Positions 5,626 through 58,010 of a stretch of DNA of 64,000 nucleotides are shown here, one piece after another. The notes under the pieces were generated by a model. The model ran no database searches. It saw only the letters and a program-made list of their open reading frames with translations, and was not told the origin of the DNA. The stretch's first letter is position 1. Every line of letters starts with the position of its first letter. The position numbers were made by a program, and so were the translations under genes. Source of the DNA: Bacteroidota bacterium (GTDB lineage: Bacteria; Bacteroidota; Bacteroidia; 2-12-FULL-35-15); assembly GCA_017303895.1 (NCBI GenBank), contig JAFLBF010000001.1, positions 1 to 64,000 on the forward strand. Direction: 5' to 3'.

Positions 5626-6715
5626 ATGATCACAACCGACCAACTAAAAGACTTGAAAGAGCGCACGGAAGCGCTGAGGGGGCATCTTTGACATCGACCG
5701 TAAACTAAGGGAGATAGCAGAAGAAGAGGAAAAAGCATTGGCACCCAATTTCTGGGACGACCCTAAAAAAGCCGAAGAATTACTCAAACAGACCAAGATC
5801 AAAAAAAACTGGACAGCATCCTACATGCAGGCAAAAAGCAATGTAGATGATCTGGAGTTGCTTTATGATTTTTTCAAACAAGGTGAAGCAACCGAACAGG
5901 ATGTTGAACAACAATATCAAACTACACTCAAACATTTAGAGGAGATCGAATTCAAGAATATGTTGAGCGGTCAGGAAGATGTATTAAGTTGTGTGGTTCA
6001 GATCAATGCCGGAGCGGGAGGCACAGAGAGTTGCGACTGGGCAGCAATGCTCATGCGTATGTATAAAATGTGGGCTGAGAAAAACGGCTATAAGATCAAA
6101 GAAGTAGATTATCAGGAAGGTGATGTAGCCGGGATCAAGTCGGTTACCATGGAGTTTGAAGGCGAATATGCTTTTGGTTATTTGAAAGGCGAAAATGGAG
6201 TGCACCGTTTGGTACGAATTTCCCCTTTTGATGCCAATGCTAAACGACATACCTCCTTTGCATCTGTTTATGTTTACCCGCTGATTGATGATACGATTGA
6301 AGTAGATGTGAATCCGGCCGATATTGAATTTGAAACATTCCGTGCTGGTGGTGCAGGTGGACAAAATGTAAACAAAGTTGAAACAGCAGTCCGTTTGTAT
6401 CACAAACCATCTGGCATTATCATCAAGAATCAGGAATCGCGTTCACAATTACAGAACAAAGAGAATGCGATCAAATTATTAAAATCTCAATTGTTTGAAA
6501 TTGAAATGCGCAAAAAACGTGAATCAATTGCAGCAATTGAAGGCAACAAGAAAAAAATTGAGTGGGGCTCACAAATTCGCAATTATGTTTTTCATCCTTA
6601 CAAATTAGTAAAAGATCTCCGAACCGATTATGAAACATCGAATGTACAAGCGGTGATGGATGGAGAACTAAATGACTTTATTAAATCTTATTTAATGGAA
6701 TATGGCAACAGTTAA
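5626..6715 (+). CDS. prfB: Peptide chain release factor 2 (programmed +1 frameshift)
   Basis: RF2 recognises UGA and UAA stop codons and triggers peptide release on the ribosome. The gene is read in two frames. ATG at 5626 opens a 21-codon segment ([20 protein letters not shown] and then Leu) ending at an in-frame TGA at 5689. Skipping one base (CTT TGA C to CTT GAC) continues through [20 protein letters not shown] to 6715, giving 362 residues, the normal RF2 length. The specificity tripeptide SPF (about 198-200) and the catalytic GGQ within [12 protein letters not shown] (about 242) are intact. The final 14 nt overlap the next gene. The frameshift makes the gene self-regulated by RF2 level. 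Confidence 0.96.
5676..5691 (+). promoter_or_regulatory. prfB: Programmed +1 frameshift site of prfB
   Basis: An internal Shine-Dalgarno-like GAGGGGG (5676-5682), a 3-nt spacer, slippery CTT (5686-5688), then TGA (5689-5691) followed by C. This is the canonical AGGGGG-n3-CTTTGAC arrangement known from Escherichia coli prfB. Confidence 0.95.
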
Positions 6716-44002: not shown

Positions 44003-44053
44003 AGCAGCATATTCAATTAAAACTTGCTTATTACTAATGTAACCAAATGCATA

Positions 44054-45406
44054 ATGACAATTAAATGCAACATATTAATCATTGATGATGAAGAAAAATT
44101 TCGACAATTGCTTTCTCGAATAATCTCATTAGAAGGGTTTAATGTACAACAAGCAGGAACAATAAGCCATGGGTTACAAATCATACAACAGGAAAAAAAC
44201 ATTGATATTGTCTTAACTGATGTCAAATTACCCGATGGAAATGGAATTGAATTATTAGAAAAAATAAAAAAAAATCATCCTATTTGTGAAATCATAGTTA
44301 TGACTGCTTTTGGAACCATTCATGATGGAGTAAGAGCCATGAAACTGGGAGCATTCGATTATTTTACAAAGGGTGATGATAATGACCAGATTATTCCGGC
44401 ATTAAATCGGGCAGCAGATAAAATTAAGTTACAAAAACGTATTGCTGAATTAGAAAATAAATTAGAAACCAAATTTGGTTTTGATATAATAATTGGCGAA
44501 TCGGAAGTAATAAAATCGACTGTTGCATTAGCAAAAAAAGTAGCTCCAACCGATTCAACTGTATTACTAGAAGGGGAAACCGGAGTTGGTAAAGAATTAT
44601 TTGCACAAGCCATTCATTATTCTAGTCCAAGAAAAAATAACTCATTTGTAGCCGTTAATTGTAGCTCCTTCGCAAAGGATTTGCTAGAAAGTGAATTATT
44701 TGGCCATAAAAAAGGAGCATTTACGGGAGCTATAATGGATAAAAAAGGCTTGTTTGAAGAAGCAAACGAAGGAACCATTTTCTTGGATGAAATGGGAGAA
44801 ATGAATTTGGATCTGCAAGCAAAACTTTTACGCGTATTAGAAACACAAACTTTTATTAAAATTGGTGATACCAAGCCAACAAAAGTAAATGTCCGTGTTA
44901 TTGCAGCAACAAATCGTGATCTTAAAAAAGAATCTGAAAAGAAAGATTTTCGTCTCGATCTATACTATCGCCTTTCAACATTTAAAATCAATATTCCCTC
45001 TCTTAAAGAACGAAAAGAAGATATTGAAGCCATCGCAAAACATTTTCTTACTATTTATGCTATAAAATTAAAAAAGCGAATTCCCCATATTGATAAAGAT
45101 TTTTTAAAACAACTCAAAAAAAATGAGTGGAAAGGAAATATTCGTGAATTAAAAAATTGCATTGAACGAGCAGTAATACTTGCTGAAGGAGAAAGCCTTA
45201 CACCAGATCTGCTACCTGCTGAACTATTAAATAACGAATCATCGAATGCTGATTGTTCTATTACTAGTTTAGCCGCAATGGAAAAAGTGCATATTCAAAA
45301 AATACTTTCATTAGCTAAAGGCAACAAAACCAAAGCTGCCGATTTATTAGGAATTGGTTTAACAACACTCTACCGTAAAATAGAAGAGTATCACCTCGAA
45401 AAATAA
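44054..45406 (+). CDS. Sigma-54-dependent (NtrC-type) response regulator
   Basis: 450 residues from the ATG at 44054 (MTIKCNILIIDDEEKFRQLL); the longer frame starts with TTG. Receiver domain with phospho-Asp56 (IVLTDVKLPDGNG); AAA+ domain with Walker A GETGVGKE (about 174), the sigma-54 contact loop GAFTGA (about 221), and Walker B GTIFLDEMGEM; C-terminal Fis-type helix-turn-helix (NKTKAADLLGIGLTTLYRKIEEY). It activates sigma-54 promoters from distant sites. It opens the potassium island, and tandem CCAAAATG elements lie before the kdp operon and the porin. It takes the place of the OmpR-type KdpE. Confidence 0.95.
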   Translation: MTIKCNILIIDDEEKFRQLLSRIISLEGFNVQQAGTISHGLQIIQQEKNIDIVLTDVKLPDGNGIELLEKIKKNHPICEIIVMTAFGTIHDGVRAMKLGAFDYFTKGDDNDQIIPALNRAADKIKLQKRIAELENKLETKFGFDIIIGESEVIKSTVALAKKVAPTDSTVLLEGETGVGKELFAQAIHYSSPRKNNSFVAVNCSSFAKDLLESELFGHKKGAFTGAIMDKKGLFEEANEGTIFLDEMGEMNLDLQAKLLRVLETQTFIKIGDTKPTKVNVRVIAATNRDLKKESEKKDFRLDLYYRLSTFKINIPSLKERKEDIEAIAKHFLTIYAIKLKKRIPHIDKDFLKQLKKNEWKGNIRELKNCIERAVILAEGESLTPDLLPAELLNNESSNADCSITSLAAMEKVHIQKILSLAKGNKTKAADLLGIGLTTLYRKIEEYHLEK

Positions 45407-45541: not shown

Positions 45542-45558
45542 TTGGCATATGCGGTTCA
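45542..45558 (+). promoter_or_regulatory. Candidate sigma-54 (-24/-12) promoter, kdp operon
   Basis: TTGGCAT (45542-45548) matches the -24 element; the -12 zone reads GTTCA, lacking the conserved G of TTGCA, so the match is partial. The implied start site is very close to the ATG at 45570. The same TTGGCAT stands before the porin at 51481. Confidence 0.35.
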
Positions 45559-45569
45559 AAACAATTGAA

Positions 45570-46133
45570 ATGAAAACCCGCATATCACTTTTGATTTTAC
45601 TTATCAGCTCTTTTTCAAACAGTATTCAGGCGCAAAATAATACACGTGGACTGTTTTTAACTGCCGATGATTTTCAAAAAAAGAATATCACTCATGCTTC
45701 GACACACACACGAATTAAATTACATGAATTTTTTAATAAAGAAATAATTGAAGTTAAAACAAAAGACAGCACCTACACCTATTTCAAAAAAGACATTTTT
45801 GGTTATACAGACCCTGAAGGGAATGTTTATAGAATATTCAATGGCAAAATATACACGATTGTAAATCCCTATGAGCCTATCTTAATTTATAAAATTTCAG
45901 ATGGTCCACCACCAAAAGGACAAACCAAAAGTTATTCTTATTATTTCAGCAAGGAAGCATCAAGCACAATTTTTCCACTGGCCATGAATAACATTTTGAA
46001 TGAATTTAATGATCATAAAGAATTTCAGAAAGTAATAGAGATACATTTTGGCAATTCAAACAGCTTATTAGAATATGACTATATCCACAAAATGTACAAA
46101 ATAAATCGCTTGTTTGAATTATCGAAAAGTTAA
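45570..46133 (+). CDS. Secreted protein of unknown function, first gene of kdp operon
   Basis: From the ATG at 45570 the protein has 187 residues with a signal peptide (MKTRISLLILLISSFSNSIQAQ); an ATG at 45549 would add 7 residues. The mature part (NTRGLFLTADDFQKKNITHAS, EVKTKDSTYTYFKKDIFGYTDPEGNVYRIFNGKIYTIVNPYEPI) is not a family I recognise and has no cysteine. It is probably periplasmic or outer-membrane associated. It lies 19 nt before the next gene and is followed by closely spaced genes through kdpC, so it appears to be co-transcribed with the potassium pump. Confidence 0.78.
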   Translation: MKTRISLLILLISSFSNSIQAQNNTRGLFLTADDFQKKNITHASTHTRIKLHEFFNKEIIEVKTKDSTYTYFKKDIFGYTDPEGNVYRIFNGKIYTIVNPYEPILIYKISDGPPPKGQTKSYSYYFSKEASSTIFPLAMNNILNEFNDHKEFQKVIEIHFGNSNSLLEYDYIHKMYKINRLFELSKS

Positions 46134-46152: not shown

Positions 46153-46575
46153 ATGAATGCAACATTAGAATTCCTCAGAATTAAGGCAGAAATGATGACA
46201 ATAAACCAACATCATTTAATAAATGAAACAGAAGCGGTTGATTTATTAGGAAATGAATTCCCAACAATAAATAACGATTTAGAGAAAACAGCGAATGCAA
46301 CAAACATCTATAAAGCCATGCAATGTTTTTCAGATTTTACGAAGCAATTAATTAACAAGGGGAATTTTAAGGAAGTGAGACACTGCTTTAAAGTGGCCGA
46401 AAACATGCTGGAAAATGGGAATAGTACAGTTAAGAACGCTATCGAAAATAGTTACTTATACTCCATATACACTCTACTTGATCTAGCAAGTCCGGTGAGT
46501 CAAAAAGTAAAAAGTCTATTAACGTATTCCTTAAAAAAAGAATATAACAAACAAGTTTGTTCAAGCGGAATTTAA
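46153..46575 (+). CDS. 140-residue cytosolic helical protein in kdp operon (unknown function)
   Basis: No signal peptide or membrane span; predicted mostly helical. Segments such as INETEAVDLLGNEFPTINN, NIYKAMQCFSDFTKQLINKGN and VRHCFKVAENMLENGNSTVKNAIENSYLYSIYTLLDL resemble a small domain-of-unknown-function family found next to Bacteroidota kdp genes (possibly DUF7674, from memory and unverified). Placed between the secreted protein and the microprotein genes, with gaps of 19 and 11 nt. Confidence 0.75.
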   Translation: MNATLEFLRIKAEMMTINQHHLINETEAVDLLGNEFPTINNDLEKTANATNIYKAMQCFSDFTKQLINKGNFKEVRHCFKVAENMLENGNSTVKNAIENSYLYSIYTLLDLASPVSQKVKSLLTYSLKKEYNKQVCSSGI

Positions 46576-46586
46576 TTCACAATAAA

Positions 46587-46700
46587 ATGAAAAAAGATTT
46601 GAATCCACTCGAAAAAATACTCTTAGTGTTCATTTTATTTTTTTTTGCTTTATGTGTTCTCACAATTATCATTGTTAAAATTAAAATATTATTAAAATAA
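46587..46700 (+). CDS. 37-residue single-span microprotein (kdp operon)
   Basis: ATG at 46587, TAA at 46698-46700. The product is MKKDLNPLEK, then a hydrophobic stretch of about 20 residues (ILLVFILFFFALCVLTIIIV), then KIKILLK. It is a single membrane helix flanked by basic ends. It lies 11 nt after the previous stop and 6 nt before the next ATG, in the same direction as kdpF. Confidence 0.6.
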   Translation: MKKDLNPLEKILLVFILFFFALCVLTIIIVKIKILLK

Positions 46701-46706
46701 CTCATC

Positions 46707-46799
46707 ATGGAAACAATTTTATCAGTATCACTAGTAGCGGCCGGCCTGTTCTGTTTTTGGCTCTTCGTAAAATGCATTGATTTTCTCGAAAACATTTAA
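46707..46799 (+). CDS. 30-residue single-span microprotein (kdp operon)
   Basis: ATG at 46707, TAA at 46797-46799. The product starts METILSVSLVAAGLFCFWLF and ends VKCIDFLENI, so it is nearly all one membrane helix with a short acidic tail. Gaps are 6 nt upstream and 11 nt downstream. No known family is recognised. Confidence 0.6.
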   Translation: METILSVSLVAAGLFCFWLFVKCIDFLENI

Positions 46800-46810
46800 A
46801 TCTAAACAAA

Positions 46811-46918
46811 ATGGACCGCACAGTACAAGTTCTGTTACTCATGATATGTTATGCAATACCAATTATTGGTGGTATAATATATCGAATTAAAAAAAATCTT
46901 AAAAAACAAACAAAATGA
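46811..46918 (+). CDS. 35-residue single-span microprotein overlapping kdpF
   Basis: ATG at 46811, TGA at 46916-46918. The product is MDRTVQVLLLMICYAIPIIG, then GIIYRIKKNLKKQTK: one hydrophobic helix and a strongly basic cytosolic tail. Its stop overlaps the kdpF start (ATGA at 46915-46918), so the two are translationally coupled. Confidence 0.62.
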   Translation: MDRTVQVLLLMICYAIPIIGGIIYRIKKNLKKQTK

Positions 46919-46992
46919 TCTTACTACTTATCCTGGCAATTGCTGTTTTTGGTTATCTCATTTATGTATTAATGAAACCGGAAAAATTTTAA
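46915..46992 (+). CDS. kdpF: Potassium-transporting ATPase subunit KdpF
   Basis: 25 residues, MILLLILAIAVFGYLIYVLM plus KPEKF. The YLIYVLMKPEKF ending is the hallmark of KdpF, which stabilises the KdpABC complex in the inner membrane. It sits 20 nt before kdpA, the expected position. Confidence 0.85.
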   Translation: MILLLILAIAVFGYLIYVLMKPEKF

Positions 46993-47012
46993 AAAAAATA
47001 AAAAAGTAACTT

Positions 47013-48713
47013 ATGAATACAGAATTAATTGGTGTTATCGCCACCTTTGCAATTACGGTTGCCATAGCCATCCCTTTCGGAAAATATATCGCGAAAGTTT
47101 TTAGTGGAGAAAAAACTGCGCTCGATTTTATCTCACCATTTGAAAAATGGATATTTCGAATGTGCAGAATAGACAGCTCCAAACAAATGAATTGGAAACA
47201 ACATTTGATCGCTTTGCTGTCGATCAATATACTTTGGTTTGTTTATGCCTTTATTATGCTACTTACGCAAGGCAGTTTATTTTTAAATCCTGATGGGAAT
47301 CCATCAATGAGCCCTGATCTTAGTTTTAATACGGCAATTAGCTTTTTGGTCAATTGCAACTTACAACATTATTCAGGTGAAACAGGCTTAACTTATTTAA
47401 CACAATTAGCCGTTATTACATTTTTACAATTTGTGTCAGCAGCAACTGGAATTGCAGCATTAATTGTTGTGTTCAATGCTATGAAAGAAAATGTTAGTGA
47501 TGGCTTGGGTAATTTCTTTGATATTTTTTTAAAATCAATTACCCGTATTTTATTACCCGTAAGTATTATCATTGCGGTAGTCCTTATTTTTAATGGCACA
47601 CCGGCTAGTTTTGATGGGAAAGATACCATCACAACATTACAGGGAGATACTGTTCAGGTATCCCGTGGGCCTGCAGCTGGCATGATTGCTATAAAACATT
47701 TAGGAACAAATGGTGGTGGCTGGTTTGGTGTAAATTCCGCACATCCATTAGAGAACCCGAACTACTTAACCAACATGGTGGAAATGATTGCACAAGTACT
47801 AATTCCAATAGCACTCATTTTTGCATTAGGATTTTATTTGAAGCGCAAAAAAATGGCTTATGTCATTTTTGGTGTAATGACGATAGGAATGCTATCATTA
47901 CTAATTCCGACTCTAATAGCGGAATCGAATGGAAATCCAGCTATTACAGAAATGGGAATCGATCAAAGTGCTGGTAGCATGGAAGGCAAAGAAGTGCGTT
48001 TTGGTGCAAAAGCATCTGCTTATTGGAGCATCGTTACAACGATAATTTCAACCGGATCAGTAAACTCAATGCACGATAGCTCAATGCCGGTATCGGGGAC
48101 AATGCAACTATTAGGAATGATGACAAATGCCTTTTATGGAGGCTGCGGTGTCGGGATTTTGAACTATTATATTTTTATAATTATTGCGGTATTCATCTCA
48201 GGTTTGATGGTAGGCAGAACCCCTGAATTTTTAGGAAGGAAAATAGAAGCGAGAGAAATGAAAATTGCAACATTGGTTGCATTGCTTCATCCGTTTCTGA
48301 TATTAGTAGGAACAGCACTTTCTTCATTTGTATTCACAAACGATCCATCTGTTGGCTGGTTGAACAACCCAGGTTACCATGGCTTTTCTGAAATGTTGTA
48401 TGAGTACACCTCAAGTGCAGCAAACAATGGAAGTGGGTTTGAAGGACTTGGCGATAATAATTGGTTTTGGAATATCACAACCGGCTTTGTTTTAATACTC
48501 GGTCGTTTTTTACCGATTATTGGCCCAGTTGCTATAGCAGGAATATTAGCTAAGAAAAAGTTCATCCCGGAATCGGCCGGCACATTAAGAACAGATACGG
48601 GAACATTCGGAATAATGACATACGCTGTTATTATGATCATTGCAGCATTAGCTTTTTTCCCGGCATTAGTACTTGGGCCATTAGCTGAATATTTTACATT
48701 ATATCATCCATAA
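47013..48713 (+). CDS. kdpA: Potassium-transporting ATPase subunit KdpA
   Basis: 566-residue inner-membrane channel-like subunit that binds and translocates K+. Selectivity-filter-type segments are visible: [65 protein letters not shown], and [18 protein letters not shown]. About ten membrane segments; full length. It is followed by kdpB after 13 nt. Confidence 0.97.
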
Positions 48714-48726
48714 AATAGTTAATTCT

Positions 48727-50790
48727 ATGAACACGAATCAAAATAAATCATTGTTTCAAAAAGAGCTTTTATCGGAAGCATTGAAACAATCATTCATCAA
48801 ATTGAACCCCAAATTGATGATAAAAAACCCTGTAATGTTTACTGTTGAGATAGGAACAGTGGTCATGTTAATCGTTTGTATTGGCATTATGTTCAATAAC
48901 GATGGAACACAAGGAAGTTTAGCATATAACCTGGTAGTATTTGCGATACTATTATTAACCCTCTTGTTTGCAAATTTTGCCGAAGCAATAGCTGAAGCAC
49001 GTGGTAAAGCACAAGCTGAATCATTGAGAAAAACAAGAGAGGAAACACCTGCAAAATTAATTGCTTCAGTAGGCGAACTGTATGTAAATGAACTACAAAT
49101 GATAAGTTCATCTCAATTAAAAAAAGGAGATATTTTTTTATGTGAAGCCGGAGATATTATTCCAACCGATGGAGAAATAATAGAAGGACTTGCAACAATT
49201 GATGAATCGGCAATTACTGGTGAATCTGCTCCTGTAATTCGCGAAGCGGGTGGCGACAAAAGCTCCGTAACAGGAGGAACAAAAGTATTAAGCGATACAA
49301 TTAAAGTAAAAGTAACAACAGAACCCGGTGAATCATTTTTAGATAAAATGATTGCATTGGTTGAAGGCGCAAGCCGACAAAAAACGCCAAATGAAATTGC
49401 ACTAACAATTTTATTAGCCGGATTTACATTAGTATTCATAATCGTATGTGTTACACTTAAACCTTTTGCAGATTATGCAAATACACCCATAACAATAGCT
49501 GCCTTAATTTCATTGTTTGTGTGTTTAATCCCAACAACTATTGGCGGGTTACTTTCGGCCATTGGTATTGCCGGTATGGATAGAGCATTGCGCGCAAACG
49601 TAATTACAAAATCAGGGAAAGCTGTTGAAACAGCAGGTGATATTGATGTGCTATTGCTTGATAAAACAGGAACTATTACAATTGGAAATAGAAAAGCGAC
49701 TCACTTTTACCATTCAGACGAAACAACAGAAGAACATTTTATTGAATGCTGTGTATTGGCATCTCTTGCGGATGAAACACCGGAAGGGAAATCAATTGTT
49801 GAATTAGCAAAAGTAAAAGGAGCAAAAACAAAAGCTTCGGATGCACTTTTAAATGAAGCCGTTTTTATAAAATTTACTGCTGAAACAAGATCAAGCGGAA
49901 TTGATTTAAAGAACAACCTGCGCATCCGGAAAGGAGCAGCAGATACCATCAAGAAAAATGCAGAAAAAGCAGGACATACATATTCTTCGGGTATAGATAA
50001 AATTGTTAATGGCATTTCAGCAAATGGTGGAACACCATTAGTCGTTTCTGAAAATGAAAAAATAATGGGTGTAATAGAATTACAAGACATTATCAAGCCG
50101 GGGATTCAAGAACGATTCGAACGTTTAAGAAAAATGGGGATCAAAACTGTAATGGTTACAGGCGATAATCCACTTACCGCAAAATTTATTGCTGAAAAAG
50201 CTGGTGTAGATGATTTTATTGCTGAAGCAAAGCCCGAAGATAAAATGAATTACATTAAAAAAGAACAAGCCGAAGGAAAATTGGTAGCAATGATGGGAGA
50301 TGGAACAAATGATGCTCCTGCCCTGGCACAAGCTGACGTGGGTGTAGCGATGAACAGTGGCACACAAGCGGCTAAAGAAGCAGGCAACATGGTTGATTTA
50401 GATAATGACCCTACCAAATTAATTGAAATTGTAGAAATAGGAAAACAATTATTAATTACTCGTGGGACTTTAACCACTTTTTCAATTGCAAATGATGTAG
50501 CAAAATATTTTGCTATTGTTCCAGCACTTTTTATTGCATCTATTCCAGCATTGCAAGGATTAAATATAATGCATTTAAAAAGTCCGGAGAGTGCTATTTT
50601 ATCTGCGGTAATATTTAATGCGCTAATCATTCCAATCCTTATTCCATTGGCACTACGCGGAGTTGAGTACAAACCAATTGGTGCTAGTGCCTTACTTAGA
50701 AGAAATTTAATCATATACGGATTTGGTGGAATATTAGTACCATTTATAGGGATCAAATTAATTGACATGCTTGTGGGTTTATTTTTTTAA
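48727..50790 (+). CDS. kdpB: Potassium-transporting ATPase ATP-binding subunit KdpB
   Basis: 687-residue P-type ATPase subunit. Actuator motif TGES in [18 protein letters not shown], phosphorylation site DKTGT in [52 protein letters not shown], and the hinge [21 protein letters not shown] are all intact. Hand inspection finds only three GATC sites in this gene, against about 31 in the similar-sized feoB. Confidence 0.97.
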
Positions 50791-50808: not shown

Positions 50809-51369
50809 ATGAAAACATACATTTTACCATCATTAAAACTAACCGGAATATTAATTCTTATTTGTTCTGTTATGTATCCATTGCTGATCGCAGGCATCTC
50901 CATGTTTGCTCCCGGAAATGGTGAAGGGAAAAAAATCACTGCTCATAACAATGTTGTAGGGTATGAGAATATCGGACAACAATTTACGGATGACAGCTAT
51001 TTTCAAGGAAGACCATCTGCTGTAGATTACAATGCAGCGGGATCTGCAGGGTCCAACAAAGGAGGAGCTAATCCCGATTATTTAGCAACAGTGCAAGCAC
51101 GCATAGATACATTTTTAGTACACAATCCGGAAATTGACAAAGCTGCCATTCCATGTGATCTGGTTACAGCAAGTGGTAGCGGATTAGATCCTAATATCTC
51201 AGTAAAAGCTGCTAAAATTCAAGTGGCAAGGATTGCTAAAATCAGAAACAAAAGCGCGAAAGAAATAAATGACTTGATTGACAAATTAATTGAAAAACCA
51301 CTATTGGGACTCTTTGGACCAGAGAAAATTAATGTGCTCAAATTGAATATTGCTTTAAATGAGCTATAA
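50809..51369 (+). CDS. kdpC: Potassium-transporting ATPase subunit KdpC
   Basis: 186 residues with one N-terminal span (LTGILILICSVMYPLLIAGI) and a periplasmic domain. YFQGRPSAVDYNAAGSAGSNKGGANPDYLATVQARI and SGSGLDPNISVKAAKIQVARIAKIR are KdpC hallmarks. It closes the kdpFABC unit; no hairpin follows before the porin's upstream region. Confidence 0.96.
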   Translation: MKTYILPSLKLTGILILICSVMYPLLIAGISMFAPGNGEGKKITAHNNVVGYENIGQQFTDDSYFQGRPSAVDYNAAGSAGSNKGGANPDYLATVQARIDTFLVHNPEIDKAAIPCDLVTASGSGLDPNISVKAAKIQVARIAKIRNKSAKEINDLIDKLIEKPLLGLFGPEKINVLKLNIALNEL

Positions 51370-53244: not shown

Positions 53245-55177
53245 ATGAAACATATCAACTTACAAAAATTAACATTTGCCGGATTTCTAGTTTCAATAGG
53301 AATTGTATTTGGAGATATTGGCACTTCCCCACTTTATACGTACACCGCAATTATTGGCTCCCAAACAATAACCGAACTAATTGCCCTAGGCGGAGTTTCC
53401 GCTATCTTTTGGACACTTTTTTTTTCAAACAACTGTAAAGTATGTTTTTATAACATTGCGGGCAGACAACAAAGGCGAAGGTGGAATTTTCTCCTTGTAT
53501 ACCTTGATTAGAAAGTACAGGAAATGGCTGCTGTTCCCTGCAATTGCAGGAGGAAGCTTTTTATTAGCAGATAGTATTATCACTCCACCTATTTCTGTTT
53601 CATCAGCCATGGAAGGCTTGAAACCTCATTTCCCGGACATCCCAATCATCCCTTTAGTTATTTCTATTATAGTTATATTGTTTTTTTTACAACGCAAAGG
53701 CACATCGTTCCTAGGTAAATTATTTGGCCCAATTATGATGCTTTGGTTTACAATGATCGCCATTTTAGGTTTAAGCGAATTAATTGGAAATATTACCGTT
53801 TTAAAAGCCTTGAATCCGTATTATGCCTACAAGCTATTATCGGAGCATCCCGGAGGATTCTGGTTATTAGGCGGAGTATTTTTATGTACAACGGGGGCAG
53901 AAGCCTTGTATTCGGATCTGGGGCATTGTGGCAGAAAAAACATTCAAATCAGCTGGCTTTATGTTAAAGTATGTCTCATCTTATGCTATTTTGGACAGGC
54001 AGCATGGTTATTAAAACATGTTGGAACACAGCTTACTGATGTTAGTCCATTTTTTGGCCTGGTACCGGCTTGGTTTATTTTTCCGGCAATAGCTATTGCA
54101 ACCGCTGCAACTATTATTGCAAGTCAAGCTTTAATTAGTGGCTCCTTTACCTTAGTAGCCGAAGCCATTCGTTTAAACTTATGGCCAAAACTAAGAGTCG
54201 TTTTTCCTACAAATGTAAAAGGACAACTGTATATCCCTACGATCAATTGGCTGCTCATGTTTGGTTGTATCGCTGTTGTATTATTTTTTAAAGAGTCTAA
54301 AAATATGGAAGCCGCCTTTGGATTATCCGTAACATTAACAATGTTAATGACCACCATTTTGCTGAGCTTTTATTTATTTACAAAAAAAATCAATAAAATA
54401 GCCATCTATACATTACTCCTGATTTTTTTGAGCATTGAAAGCATATTCCTGATAGCCAACCTTAAAAAGTTTACGCATGGAGGCTGGGTTACATTGCTTT
54501 TAGGCTTGATCATTTTTAGCATCATGTATATATGGCATAGAGCCGGAGAAATTAGAAAAAAATTACAAAATTTTGTTCCATTAGAAAAGTATATTCCAAT
54601 CTTAAAAGAATTAAGTGTAGATGAAAAAATTCCCAAATATGCTACCAATCTGGTGTATCTAACCTCATCAAACAATAGCAATCTGATTGAAGAACGCAGT
54701 ATCTATTCAATACTTTACAAACAACCCAAACGAGCCGACATTTATTGGTTTGTGCATATAAATGTAGTTGATGAGCCCTATAAAATGACCTATAAAACAG
54801 AGGTTATTGCAAAAGAAGACATCGTTTGGATAACATTTAACTTAGGATTCCGGGTAGAACCTCGAATAAATTTATTGTTTAGAAAAGTAGTGGAAGAAAT
54901 GGTGAACAATAAAGAGGTAAATATTAATAGCCGTTATAGCTCATTGGATAAACACAATATAACCGGAGATTTCAGATTTGTTGTGATGCAACGATTTTTA
55001 TCTTTTGAAAACGAGCTCTCACTTTCGAATAATTTTATCCTCAAAGCATATTTCTTATTAAAGAAAATAAGTTTACCCGATGAAAAAGAGTATGGTTTAG
55101 ATTACAGCAATGTTACCATTGAAAAGTCACCTCTTATTCTTAGTTCACCCAAAAATATAAATCTAGTTAGAGAGTAA
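53245..55177 (+). CDS. kup: Kup-family K+ uptake permease, broken by +1 base in a T9 run
   Basis: Inner-membrane K+ symporter. Frame 1 from the ATG at 53245 encodes FAGFLVSIGIVFGDIGTSPLYTYTAIIG up to FWTLFF, then runs out of family similarity and stops at 53511. Frame 3 continues the family exactly: QTTVKYVFITLRADNKGEGGIFSLYTLIRK. Removing one T from the nine-T run at 53417-53425 restores one 643-residue protein. Later motifs (ADSIITPPISVSSAMEG, GAEALYSDLGHCGRKNI, QALISGSFTLVAEAI) and the C-terminal cytosolic domain are intact. It could be a pseudogene, an assembly error, or expressed by slippage. Confidence 0.85.
53417..53425 (+). repeat. T9 homopolymer at the kup frameshift
   Basis: Nine consecutive T inside kup. 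Eight T would keep the frame (CTT TTT TTT CAA ACA ACT). Homopolymers of this length are prone to slippage and to sequencing error. Confidence 0.85.
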
Positions 55178-55179
55178 AA

Positions 55180-56313
55180 ATGTCTGAGCAGGAGGAAAAA
55201 GAAAAAAATGTTGAATATTTTCTCGACTTGATCAAAAGATCTAAACGGGGAAAATTTAAAATTTATATTGGCATGAGTGCCGGTGTAGGGAAAACATTCC
55301 GCATGCTTCAGGAAGCACATAACCTGCTAAAAAACAAGATCAATGTTCAAGTTGGATTTATTGAAACACACAATCGATTAGAAACAAAGGCCTTGCTTGA
55401 AGGGCTGCCAATGATCCCAAGAAGAAAAGTGTTTTACAAAGGGAAGGAATTGGAGGAAATGGATGTTCAGGCAATTATTAATGCACACCCGGAAGTAGTA
55501 ATTGTTGACGAATTAGCACACACCAACATCCCTGGATCAAAAAATGGAAAACGATGGCAAGATGTAGTAGAACTGCTCGAAAACGGGATCAATGTAATTA
55601 GTGCTTTAAACATTCAACATATTGAAAGTTTAAATGGTGAAATTCAAAAAATAACCGGCATTGAGGTACAAGAAAGAGTACCCGACAATGTTCTTAAAAT
55701 GGCGAACGAGGTTGTGAACATTGACCTAACGGCAGATGAATTAATAAACAGACTAAAGGAAGGTAAAATATATGATGTCACTAAAATAGAAACTGCATTA
55801 AAGAATTTTTTTCAATCTGAAAAGATCTTACAGCTAAGAGAATTAGCATTAAAAGAAGTGGCATCCCAAGTAGAACGGAAAATTGAGTCGGAAGTACAAT
55901 CTCCATCAAAACTTCGACCGGAAATGTTTTTAGCCTGCATCAGCTCCACGGAGACATCAGCCAAAAAAGTGATCCGGAAAACTGCACGCTTAGCTTCCTA
56001 TTACAATTCAAAATGGAAGGTGCTTCATATAGTAACTCCCCGTGAGGATAACAACAAAATATCTCTTTCGAAACAAAGGCATTTGATTAATAATTTTAAA
56101 TTAGCTACGGAATTAGGGGCCGAAGTCATTCAGATAAAAAACAACAATATTGCTAAAGCAATTTTTGATACAGCAATGGAGAAAAAAGTGACAACTATTT
56201 GTATAGGAAAACCACAATTCAGCCTTTTGAAATCTATCCTAAGCAATACAATTATCGATCAATTACTAATTAAACTAACGGGGTCAGACATTGACCTGAT
56301 AATAATTTCATGA
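55180..56313 (+). CDS. Stand-alone KdpD sensor (KdpD domain plus Usp domain)
   Basis: 377 residues equal to the N-terminal cytosolic part of KdpD only. Walker A GMSAGVGKT (about 28-36), VVIVDELAHTNIPGSKNGKRWQDVVELL, GINVISALNIQHIESLNG and VPDNVLKMANEV are KdpD-domain motifs; the C-terminal third (about 240-377) is a universal-stress-protein-like domain (ACISSTETSAKKVIRKTARLA). The four membrane helices and kinase domain of classical KdpD are absent. The stop overlaps the ATG of the kinase gene (ATGA), so it works with the next protein. Confidence 0.93.
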   Translation: MSEQEEKEKNVEYFLDLIKRSKRGKFKIYIGMSAGVGKTFRMLQEAHNLLKNKINVQVGFIETHNRLETKALLEGLPMIPRRKVFYKGKELEEMDVQAIINAHPEVVIVDELAHTNIPGSKNGKRWQDVVELLENGINVISALNIQHIESLNGEIQKITGIEVQERVPDNVLKMANEVVNIDLTADELINRLKEGKIYDVTKIETALKNFFQSEKILQLRELALKEVASQVERKIESEVQSPSKLRPEMFLACISSTETSAKKVIRKTARLASYYNSKWKVLHIVTPREDNNKISLSKQRHLINNFKLATELGAEVIQIKNNNIAKAIFDTAMEKKVTTICIGKPQFSLLKSILSNTIIDQLLIKLTGSDIDLIIIS

Positions 56314-58010
56314 TGCAGTTAAGAGTAAAAACTAAATTAAGTTTAGGCCTGGGCTTTTTATTTGTTGTAATTATTCTCATCGGAAGCTTGGGTGCATTTT
56401 ACATTCACAGCATTGCCAAAGAATCCAAGGAGATATTAAAAGACAATTACGAATCCATTGTGTACTCAAAATCTATGCTTGAGATTATAGATCTATATGA
56501 TGGAGATAGCAGCACTTTTTTCAAACGATTTGAACCTATATTAATCCGTCAAGAACATAACATTACTGAAATAGGAGAAAAAGAAAATACTCAAATGCTA
56601 AGGGATCTCTTTGCTGAAACCCAAAGAAAAGGAATTAATTCTACAACACTTTTAAATCTAAAGAAAAACCTATACAGCATTACGGATTTAAACATGCAAG
56701 CTATTCTTAGGAAGAACAATCAAGCCCAGTTAAGTGCGGATAGAGTATTGACATATATTGGTATTATTGGTGGAATTTGCTTTGTAATCGTATTTACTTT
56801 CATAATTAACTTTCCCGGATACATTGCAAATCCGATCAAAGAATTAACCGAAAGCATCAAACAAATTGCCGGCAAAAACTATCACCAGCGACTGCATTTT
56901 AGATCGGGTGACGAATTTGGTGAATTAGCAGACGCATTCAATTCAATGGCAGAAAAACTTGAACACTATGAAAATAGTAATCTTGCAAAAATCATGTTTG
57001 AAAAGAAACGAATAGAAACGATCATTAACAATATGAAAGATGCTATTATCGGAGTAAGTGAAAATCGAATCATTCTATTTGCCAATATACAAGCAGCACA
57101 ATTACTGGGATTAAACGAAACAGATCTAATTGGTAAAAATGCCACTGAAGTAGCTTTAAAGAATGATTTAATGAGATTGCTTCTGAATAATGATCCGAAT
57201 GAAAAACCGATCAAAATTTTTGCTGATGGCAAAGAAAGTTATTTTAATAAAGATAGTATCTCCATTAAATCTGAGGGCAAATCCATAGGAGAAGTGATTT
57301 TATTAAAAAACATTACACAGTTCCAAGAACTTGATCTGGCAAAAACAAATTTCATAGCAACCATATCACATGAGTTAAAAACACCGATCGCATCAATAAA
57401 ACTAAGTTCAAAGCTTTTGGAGGATAGTAGAATTGGCGAATTAAACGAAGAGCAAAAACAACTAATAACGAATATAAAAGGAGATTCTGACAGGTTACTG
57501 AAAATTACAAGCGAAGTGCTTAATATGGCACAAGTAGAAACAGGAAGGATACAATTGAATTTCCAAAAAGTGGAGGCAAAAGAAATTGTTAAATATGCTG
57601 TTGATTCACTTAAATTTCAGGCCGATCAAAAAGGAATACAAATTATTCAGGAATTAGATGAATCACTCCCGCCTGTTAATGCCGACATAGAAAAATCAGC
57701 TTGGGTAATGGTCAATTTGTTAAGCAATGCCATTAGGTATTCACCTGAAAATGATAAAATTCAAATAAAAGTCATTTCAAAAGATAAGTACATCGAATTT
57801 TTAGTACATGATAATGGTAAAGGTATAGCACCCCAGTATCAAGACAAAATTTTTGACCGGTTTTTCCGGATCCCCGGCAATCCCAAGCATGGAAGTGGCT
57901 TAGGTCTATCAATAGCCAAAGAATTTATTTTGGCTCAAAAAGGCGAAATTGGTCTAAAAAATGATGGTCACCCGGGCACCACTTTTTACTTTCTATTGCC
58001 AATAGTCTAA
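56310..58010 (+). CDS. HAMP-PAS sensor histidine kinase paired with KdpD fragment
   Basis: 566 residues: membrane span (about 10-32), periplasmic loop, second span (about 150-172), HAMP (about 172-225), PAS-like domain (about 235-335), HisKA with phospho-His at about 352 (FIATISHELKTPIASIKLSSKLLEDS), HATPase_c (N-box MVNLLSNAIRYSPE; G-box HDNGKGIAP; HGSGLGLSIAKE). It supplies the kinase module missing from the upstream KdpD fragment. The expected partner is the NtrC-type regulator at 44054, 12 kb away, because no other response regulator is in the island. Confidence 0.93.
   Translation: MMQLRVKTKLSLGLGFLFVVIILIGSLGAFYIHSIAKESKEILKDNYESIVYSKSMLEIIDLYDGDSSTFFKRFEPILIRQEHNITEIGEKENTQMLRDLFAETQRKGINSTTLLNLKKNLYSITDLNMQAILRKNNQAQLSADRVLTYIGIIGGICFVIVFTFIINFPGYIANPIKELTESIKQIAGKNYHQRLHFRSGDEFGELADAFNSMAEKLEHYENSNLAKIMFEKKRIETIINNMKDAIIGVSENRIILFANIQAAQLLGLNETDLIGKNATEVALKNDLMRLLLNNDPNEKPIKIFADGKESYFNKDSISIKSEGKSIGEVILLKNITQFQELDLAKTNFIATISHELKTPIASIKLSSKLLEDSRIGELNEEQKQLITNIKGDSDRLLKITSEVLNMAQVETGRIQLNFQKVEAKEIVKYAVDSLKFQADQKGIQIIQELDESLPPVNADIEKSAWVMVNLLSNAIRYSPENDKIQIKVISKDKYIEFLVHDNGKGIAPQYQDKIFDRFFRIPGNPKHGSGLGLSIAKEFILAQKGEIGLKNDGHPGTTFYFLLPIV

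Follow-up and report, generated by a model that had tools for sequence, protein, structure and literature searches.

Single-span microproteins encoded before kdpF in Bacteroidota: a probable overlooked small part of the Kdp potassium pump and its optional neighbours

In the present study, a tiny gene located upstream of kdpF, herein called ORF2, was found to be coding, under selection and linked to the kdp genes, and its sequence and distribution suggest that it probably encodes an overlooked extra part of the Kdp pump. KdpFABC is the textbook potassium pump, and its structure is known from E. coli. ORF2 is conserved with the pump across the class, yet it has no Pfam or NCBIfam entry. In the window, i.e. 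the whole stretch of 64,000 nucleotides that was analysed, ORF2 is accompanied by two further small frames, ORF1 and ORF3, and we consider it fairly probable that ORF2 is an overlooked small membrane part of Kdp, with ORF1 and ORF3 as optional partners or regulators.

Four small frames before kdpA

The four frames lie in series on the forward strand: ORF1 (46587-46700; 37 aa, MKKDLNPLEKILLVFILFFFALCVLTIIIVKIKILLK), ORF2 (46707-46799; 30 aa, METILSVSLVAAGLFCFWLFVKCIDFLENI), ORF3 (46811-46918; 35 aa, MDRTVQVLLLMICYAIPIIGGIIYRIKKNLKKQTK) and ORF4 (46915-46992; 25 aa, MILLLILAIAVFGYLIYVLMKPEKF). All of them start with ATG, as observed both by direct reading of the window and in the ORF listing. 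The gaps are 11 nt between the preceding 140-aa protein and ORF1, 6 nt between ORF1 and ORF2, and 11 nt between ORF2 and ORF3, and ORF3 and ORF4 share an ATGA overlap, in agreement with the sizes, spacing and overlap given in a preliminary description of this DNA. Each frame contains one strongly hydrophobic stretch, with 17-residue Kyte-Doolittle maxima of 3.3, 2.3, 2.7 and 2.9 for ORF1 to ORF4, consistent with the one membrane helix per frame that had been proposed. ORF4 is KdpF, as it matched both PF09604 (E 2.7e-10, 40.3 bits against a cut-off of 21.2) and TIGR02115 (E 5.8e-8, 32.5 bits against a cut-off of 26.85). The KdpF match is limited to this last frame, as originally described: searches of ORF1, ORF2 and ORF3 against Pfam and NCBIfam returned nothing credible, and the KdpF models remained unmatched even at E 1. 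Herein, the three single-span microproteins are assigned to an accessory family (ORF1), a core Kdp-linked family (ORF2) and a rare family (ORF3). They had been described as unlisted membrane microproteins, and a coding nature is borne out: each of the three has homologues, and ORF1 and ORF2 show purifying selection, the homologues of ORF3 being too few for a selection test.

Upstream on the same strand are a sigma-54-dependent response regulator (44024-45406) with Response_reg, Sigma54_activat and HTH_8 domains, a 194-aa protein without a family match (45549-46133), and the 140-aa DUF7674 protein (46153-46575; PF24722, E 3e-27). Downstream follow, first on the forward strand, kdpA (47013-48713; PF03814, E 5e-226, and TIGR00680), kdpB (48727-50790), a 687-aa ORF assigned by position between kdpA and kdpC, length and operon order, and kdpC (50809-51369; PF02669, E 3e-65), and then an outer-membrane BBP2-type protein, kup in two frames, a KdpD-domain protein and a HAMP-PAS histidine kinase. 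Compared with the KdpD/KdpE layout of E. coli, the window differs in having a sigma-54-type regulator upstream, and a KdpD-domain protein separate from the HAMP-PAS kinase downstream. A sigma-54 regulator-like gene also precedes the small frames in four other loci (L035, L037, L038 and L040); no site with the sigma-54 promoter consensus was found near the small frames, and there was no excess of such sites in the window. The DUF7674 protein is encoded by a single copy in the genome, and of 103 related loci, 28 carry DUF7674 upstream of kdpA. The predicted model of the protein is all-helical (mean pLDDT 78), and the structure search with this model revealed no PDB match at E 0.001 and a weak resemblance to helical-repeat folds. 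Possibly, the protein is a Kdp-linked soluble factor. The two overlapping kup frames (53245-53511 and 53456-55177) both match K+ transporter models over consecutive parts, and both parts are contained in one frame in L037; the split in the window reflects a genuine frameshift or, alternatively, a misassembly at a T run.

The ORF2 family and its linkage to kdp

For the distribution of the frames, 112 loci were collected, i.e. places with a kdpA start obtained from one scan of named genomes and from genome searches. An ORF2 homologue of 26-31 aa, always starting with ATG, was observed upstream of kdpA on the same strand in 109 of these 112 loci, a proportion that describes Bacteroidia, since the loci were picked by similarity to the KdpA of the window. 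A few loci represent one genome sampled twice (e.g. L004 and L045), and the 109 homologues comprise 98 distinct sequences. Among the three loci without ORF2, one is cut by a contig end (L036), another represents a divergent copy of kdpA that lacks kdpF (L006), and the third is a true absence (L052). A less biased figure was obtained in a class-wide search of 395 genomes, in which the ORF2 profile matched within 2.5 kb upstream of kdpA, on the same strand, in 57 of the 62 genomes with kdpA, and matched in 2 of the 333 genomes without kdpA (Fisher p 3e-60). In these two cases, the ORF2 homologue lies downstream of a sigma-54 regulator with no kdp genes (L145), or between DUF7674 and an outer-membrane protein (L146), and both appear to be what is left of kdp operons that were deleted. 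Five genomes with kdpA gave no profile match. One of these contains a contig cut at kdpA (G262), and another contains a divergent ORF2 copy, MVFLFLLIGILFFWLFDLLIDWINEF, with a shuffle z of 5.1 (G069); no ORF2-type frame was found in the other three (G106, G119 and G180). Beyond this set, seven sequences at the ORF2 position in more distant Bacteroidota score as ORF2 relatives (z 4.3-7.3). In the single annotated Bacteroides record that was inspected, from Bacteroides finegoldii, KdpF is annotated and the adjoining ORF2 homologue is not. Second, divergent kdpA copies near another kdpA were observed at G282:C102, G385:C23 and G019:C408, and the one upstream region of a second kdpA that was checked (L006) contains neither ORF2 nor kdpF.

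The spacing between ORF2 and kdpF is tight, with a median gap of 5 nt over the 109 loci and a gap of 12 nt or less in 92 of them; the gap is 115 nt in the window and 354 nt in L111. The window is the sole locus of the 109 in which ORF3 separates ORF2 from kdpF, and ORF1 is present in 18 of the 103 kdp loci with enough upstream sequence. Thus, the same four-frame arrangement, which the preliminary description had proposed to look for in other Bacteroidota kdp operons, does not recur among the other loci of this set, and the notion that the four frames form one conserved unit is rejected. The loss of frames in relatives with intact kdpF-kdpA was likewise to be inspected, and the outcome differs among the frames: in the nearest relative, L035, of which KdpA is 91% identical and kdpF-kdpA is intact, ORF2 is kept, and both ORF1 and ORF3 are missing.

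The synonymous-biased substitution expected of real genes was observed in pooled pairs for both ORF2 (dN/dS 0.19) and ORF1 (dN/dS 0.23). For ORF2, the in-frame value was obtained over 42 independent pairs, for which the two shifted frames gave 1.0 and 2.0, and the differences are concentrated at third codon positions (333 vs 177 and 70). Conservation is highest over the last ten residues of the protein, and the family ends in a conserved [YF]K[ST][IV]xxF[ED]xI-stop motif. Counting back from the stop in the 98 distinct sequences, position -4 is F in 96 and position -3 is E or D in 97; K or R occupies -9 in 92, and -1 is I, V or M without exception. The copy in the window ends in VKCIDFLENI. Its length, span and position are those of the family, as are its residues at -9 (K), -7 (I), -3 (E) and -1 (I); it is off-motif at three places, with V for Y/F, C for S/T, and L for F at -4. 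This copy was found by a profile from which it had been left out (E 1.7e-9), and it agrees with the definition of the family, i.e. 26-31 aa, a single span, the C-terminal motif and a same-strand position upstream of kdpF. No Pfam or NCBIfam model fits the ORF2 of the window or its scanned homologues, 0 of 53 homologues match KdpF in Pfam, and the PDB contains no credible solved-structure match to ORF2. A paralogous relationship between ORF2 and KdpF was also considered and is unsupported, the profile comparison between the two being not significant.

ORF1 and ORF3 as optional neighbours

Homologues, selection and kdp linkage were also observed for ORF1. A profile built without the copy in the window ranks this copy first among the 1772 frames of the window (E 3e-11), the pooled dN/dS stated above derives from 7 pairs, and the family has a conserved WLFALxxxYxxYLKIK core. 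ORF1 occurs twice in L039 and L045. Among the 395 genomes, strong ORF1 matches sit in kdp loci with one exception (G179), in which the copy directly follows a DUF7674 gene on a contig other than the kdpA contig. A strict partnership of ORF1 with DUF7674 was rejected, as the association across 103 loci is not significant (p 0.25). ORF3 is real but rare. It was detected in three genomes only, namely that of the window, L038 and G018 (L004/L045); the profile from L038 and L045 ranks the ORF3 of the window first (E 3.8e-11), and the L045 homologue as a single query also finds it (E 3.1e-8). In L045, the ORF3 homologue is fused in frame to DUF7674 within one 154-aa frame (6110-6574), suggesting that the ORF3-like helix and DUF7674 may work together.

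The earlier proposal that the small frames encode further subunits or regulators of KdpABC thus receives good support from linkage in the case of ORF2, and it does not extend to ORF1 and ORF3 as general Kdp subunits. In our reading, ORF1 and ORF3 are real, optional membrane microproteins that are gained and lost upstream of the pump genes, with some copies adjoining or fused with DUF7674, and they are most likely lineage-specific membrane partners or regulators rather than core subunits. Alternatively, ORF1 and ORF3 might be small frames that are decaying or selfish and play no part in potassium transport, in line with the patchy distribution, the restriction of ORF3 to three genomes and the absence of both from L035; this explanation deserves some weight and is nevertheless unlikely, as ORF1 has been kept under purifying selection with a conserved core, its strong matches are confined to kdp loci apart from the one copy beside DUF7674, and ORF3 stays in frame with DUF7674 in L045.

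Possible roles of ORF2

Herein, we propose that ORF2 would be translated just before KdpF, would most likely pack as a second small helix against the membrane part of KdpA/KdpB, and might stabilise or assemble the Kdp complex, or tune its activity, as KdpF does. The sequence data are best explained if ORF2 is, besides KdpF, another small single-span subunit of the pump or a factor in its assembly, KdpF-like in role and not in family; membrane insertion, pump binding and every functional effect are what we infer from these data. An N-out, C-in topology is suggested because the C-terminal end bears K/R. KdpF (PF09604/TIGR02115) serves as the working analogue. Both proteins are 25-31-aa single spans with a charged C-terminus, encoded in the same operon and adjacent in most loci; ORF2 differs in having neither a KdpF-model match nor the PEKF ending, and the two genes are present side by side. 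KdpF has been reported in the complex, whereas for ORF2 this association would be a prediction: the title of Gassel et al. (1999), as given in the reference list of PMC6255902, presents KdpF as a part of the complex that stabilises it in vitro. Other single-span proteins tied to a larger membrane complex, such as CydX, AcrZ and the TorE/NapE-type proteins, belong to other complexes and are likened to ORF2 by kind. Counted against a subunit role are the absence of ORF2 from L052 and the E. coli locus examined, the lack of a detected frame in G106, G119 and G180, and the conserved helical face expected for packing, which is not significant in ORF2 (p 0.08). Since ORF2 is missing in a few genomes with kdpA and in the E. 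coli locus examined, it is not indispensable for a functioning Kdp pump.

Sensor kinases can be targets of membrane peptides, as PhoQ is of MgrB. ORF2 could similarly be a membrane peptide that regulates the Kdp sensor, or the turnover of the pump, rather than a subunit, and the window does encode both a KdpD-domain protein (55180-56313) and, separately, a histidine kinase (56310-58010). Such a role has also been discussed for mycobacterial KdpF (PMC3618439). The tightest linkage of ORF2 is nevertheless to kdpF-kdpA, and in Deinococcus a similar frame precedes kdpF-kdpA although kdpB lies upstream, and we regard this role as rather improbable. ORF2 might also be a cis-acting leader frame, the translation of which opens or couples kdpF and kdpA or senses K+, the peptide itself mattering little. 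The position directly before kdpF with the short median gap, and the ATGA overlap of ORF3 and kdpF in the window, are what such a leader would predict; purifying selection at the amino-acid level, the conserved membrane helix and C-terminal motif, and the retention of ORF2 at 115 nt and 354 nt from kdpF make it improbable, and less plausible than a regulatory peptide. Finally, chance open frames, which are common when short in an AT-rich region such as this one, can be practically dismissed for the array as a whole, which had been called improbable by chance: in 20,000 dinucleotide-preserving shuffles of 46576-47012, chains of at least three tightly spaced single-span ATG frames never occurred and chains of two occurred in 3, in addition to the evidence of homologues and selection, and for ORF2 a chance origin is already refuted by the selection and linkage tests.

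Small frames before kdpF are not confined to Bacteroidota. Of 22 loci taken from plasmid records of other phyla, 14 have a single-span frame of 26-34 aa before kdpF, including those of Deinococcus, Rhizobium, Sinorhizobium, Phyllobacterium, Azospirillum, Acetobacter, Roseomonas, Paracoccus, Novosphingobium, Caballeronia, Mycetohabitans, Streptomyces and Listeria. No such frame was found in the examined loci of E. coli, Enterococcus, Lactiplantibacillus, Halobacterium, Tsukamurella and Picosynechococcus; the Acinetobacter locus, in which the kdpA start is a guess, is placed in neither list. Compared with ORF2, these frames gave an hhalign probability of 8%, which is not significant, and an average shuffle z of about 2, the KdpF controls giving about 1.5. 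Common descent with the ORF2 of Bacteroidia is suggestive, not established, on this comparison. The 34-aa Mycetohabitans protein WP_191287747.1 resembles ORF2 as a single-span frame directly before kdpF, and its homology is suggested, not proven; it is labelled 'potassium ABC transporter ATPase', a misnomer for a 34-aa helix. Two further arrangements were observed: in another Bacteroidota family, f84 (L165, L166, L168 and L169), a different single-span frame, e.g. MNVYQTLYLGILIFLVIAGLGALAGIIFHL, which is unlike ORF2, precedes kdpF at the ORF2 position, and in Phyllobacterium (L206, 3153-3326) an annotated hypothetical protein of 57 aa, containing a single hydrophobic stretch, is encoded between kdpA and kdpB.

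The frames kdpZ and kdpY (orfZ/orfY) of Clostridium acetobutylicum are small frames that reportedly encode hydrophobic peptides, and no family or function of orfZ has come to our notice. One of the two may be a gene of the ORF2 kind. They are part of the transcript kdpZYABCXDE, in which both precede kdpA (Treuner-Lange et al. 1997, as cited in PMC5401905), and two small peptides before kdpA had therefore already been seen. In Caulobacter, a non-annotated kdpF preceded by a structured leader about 100 nt long has been described (PMC8552747). Our literature search found no paper defining a family for a second small protein before kdpF, and the Kdp structure papers found in it concern the four-subunit complex of E. 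coli.

An array of tiny frames can thus combine a core gene with optional genes. More broadly, Kdp might ancestrally have contained a fifth, almost always unannotated subunit encoded directly before kdpF, which would have been lost from the E. coli pump used in structural studies and to which Bacteroidota would have added the optional ORF1 and ORF3 and DUF7674; this reading, which concerns Bacteroidota and, as is plausible, also Pseudomonadota, Deinococcota, Actinomycetota and Bacillota, is put forward tentatively, its probability being somewhat below even. If ORF2 is indeed a part of the pump, the working Kdp pump of many bacteria would have a component that is missing from the E. coli model.
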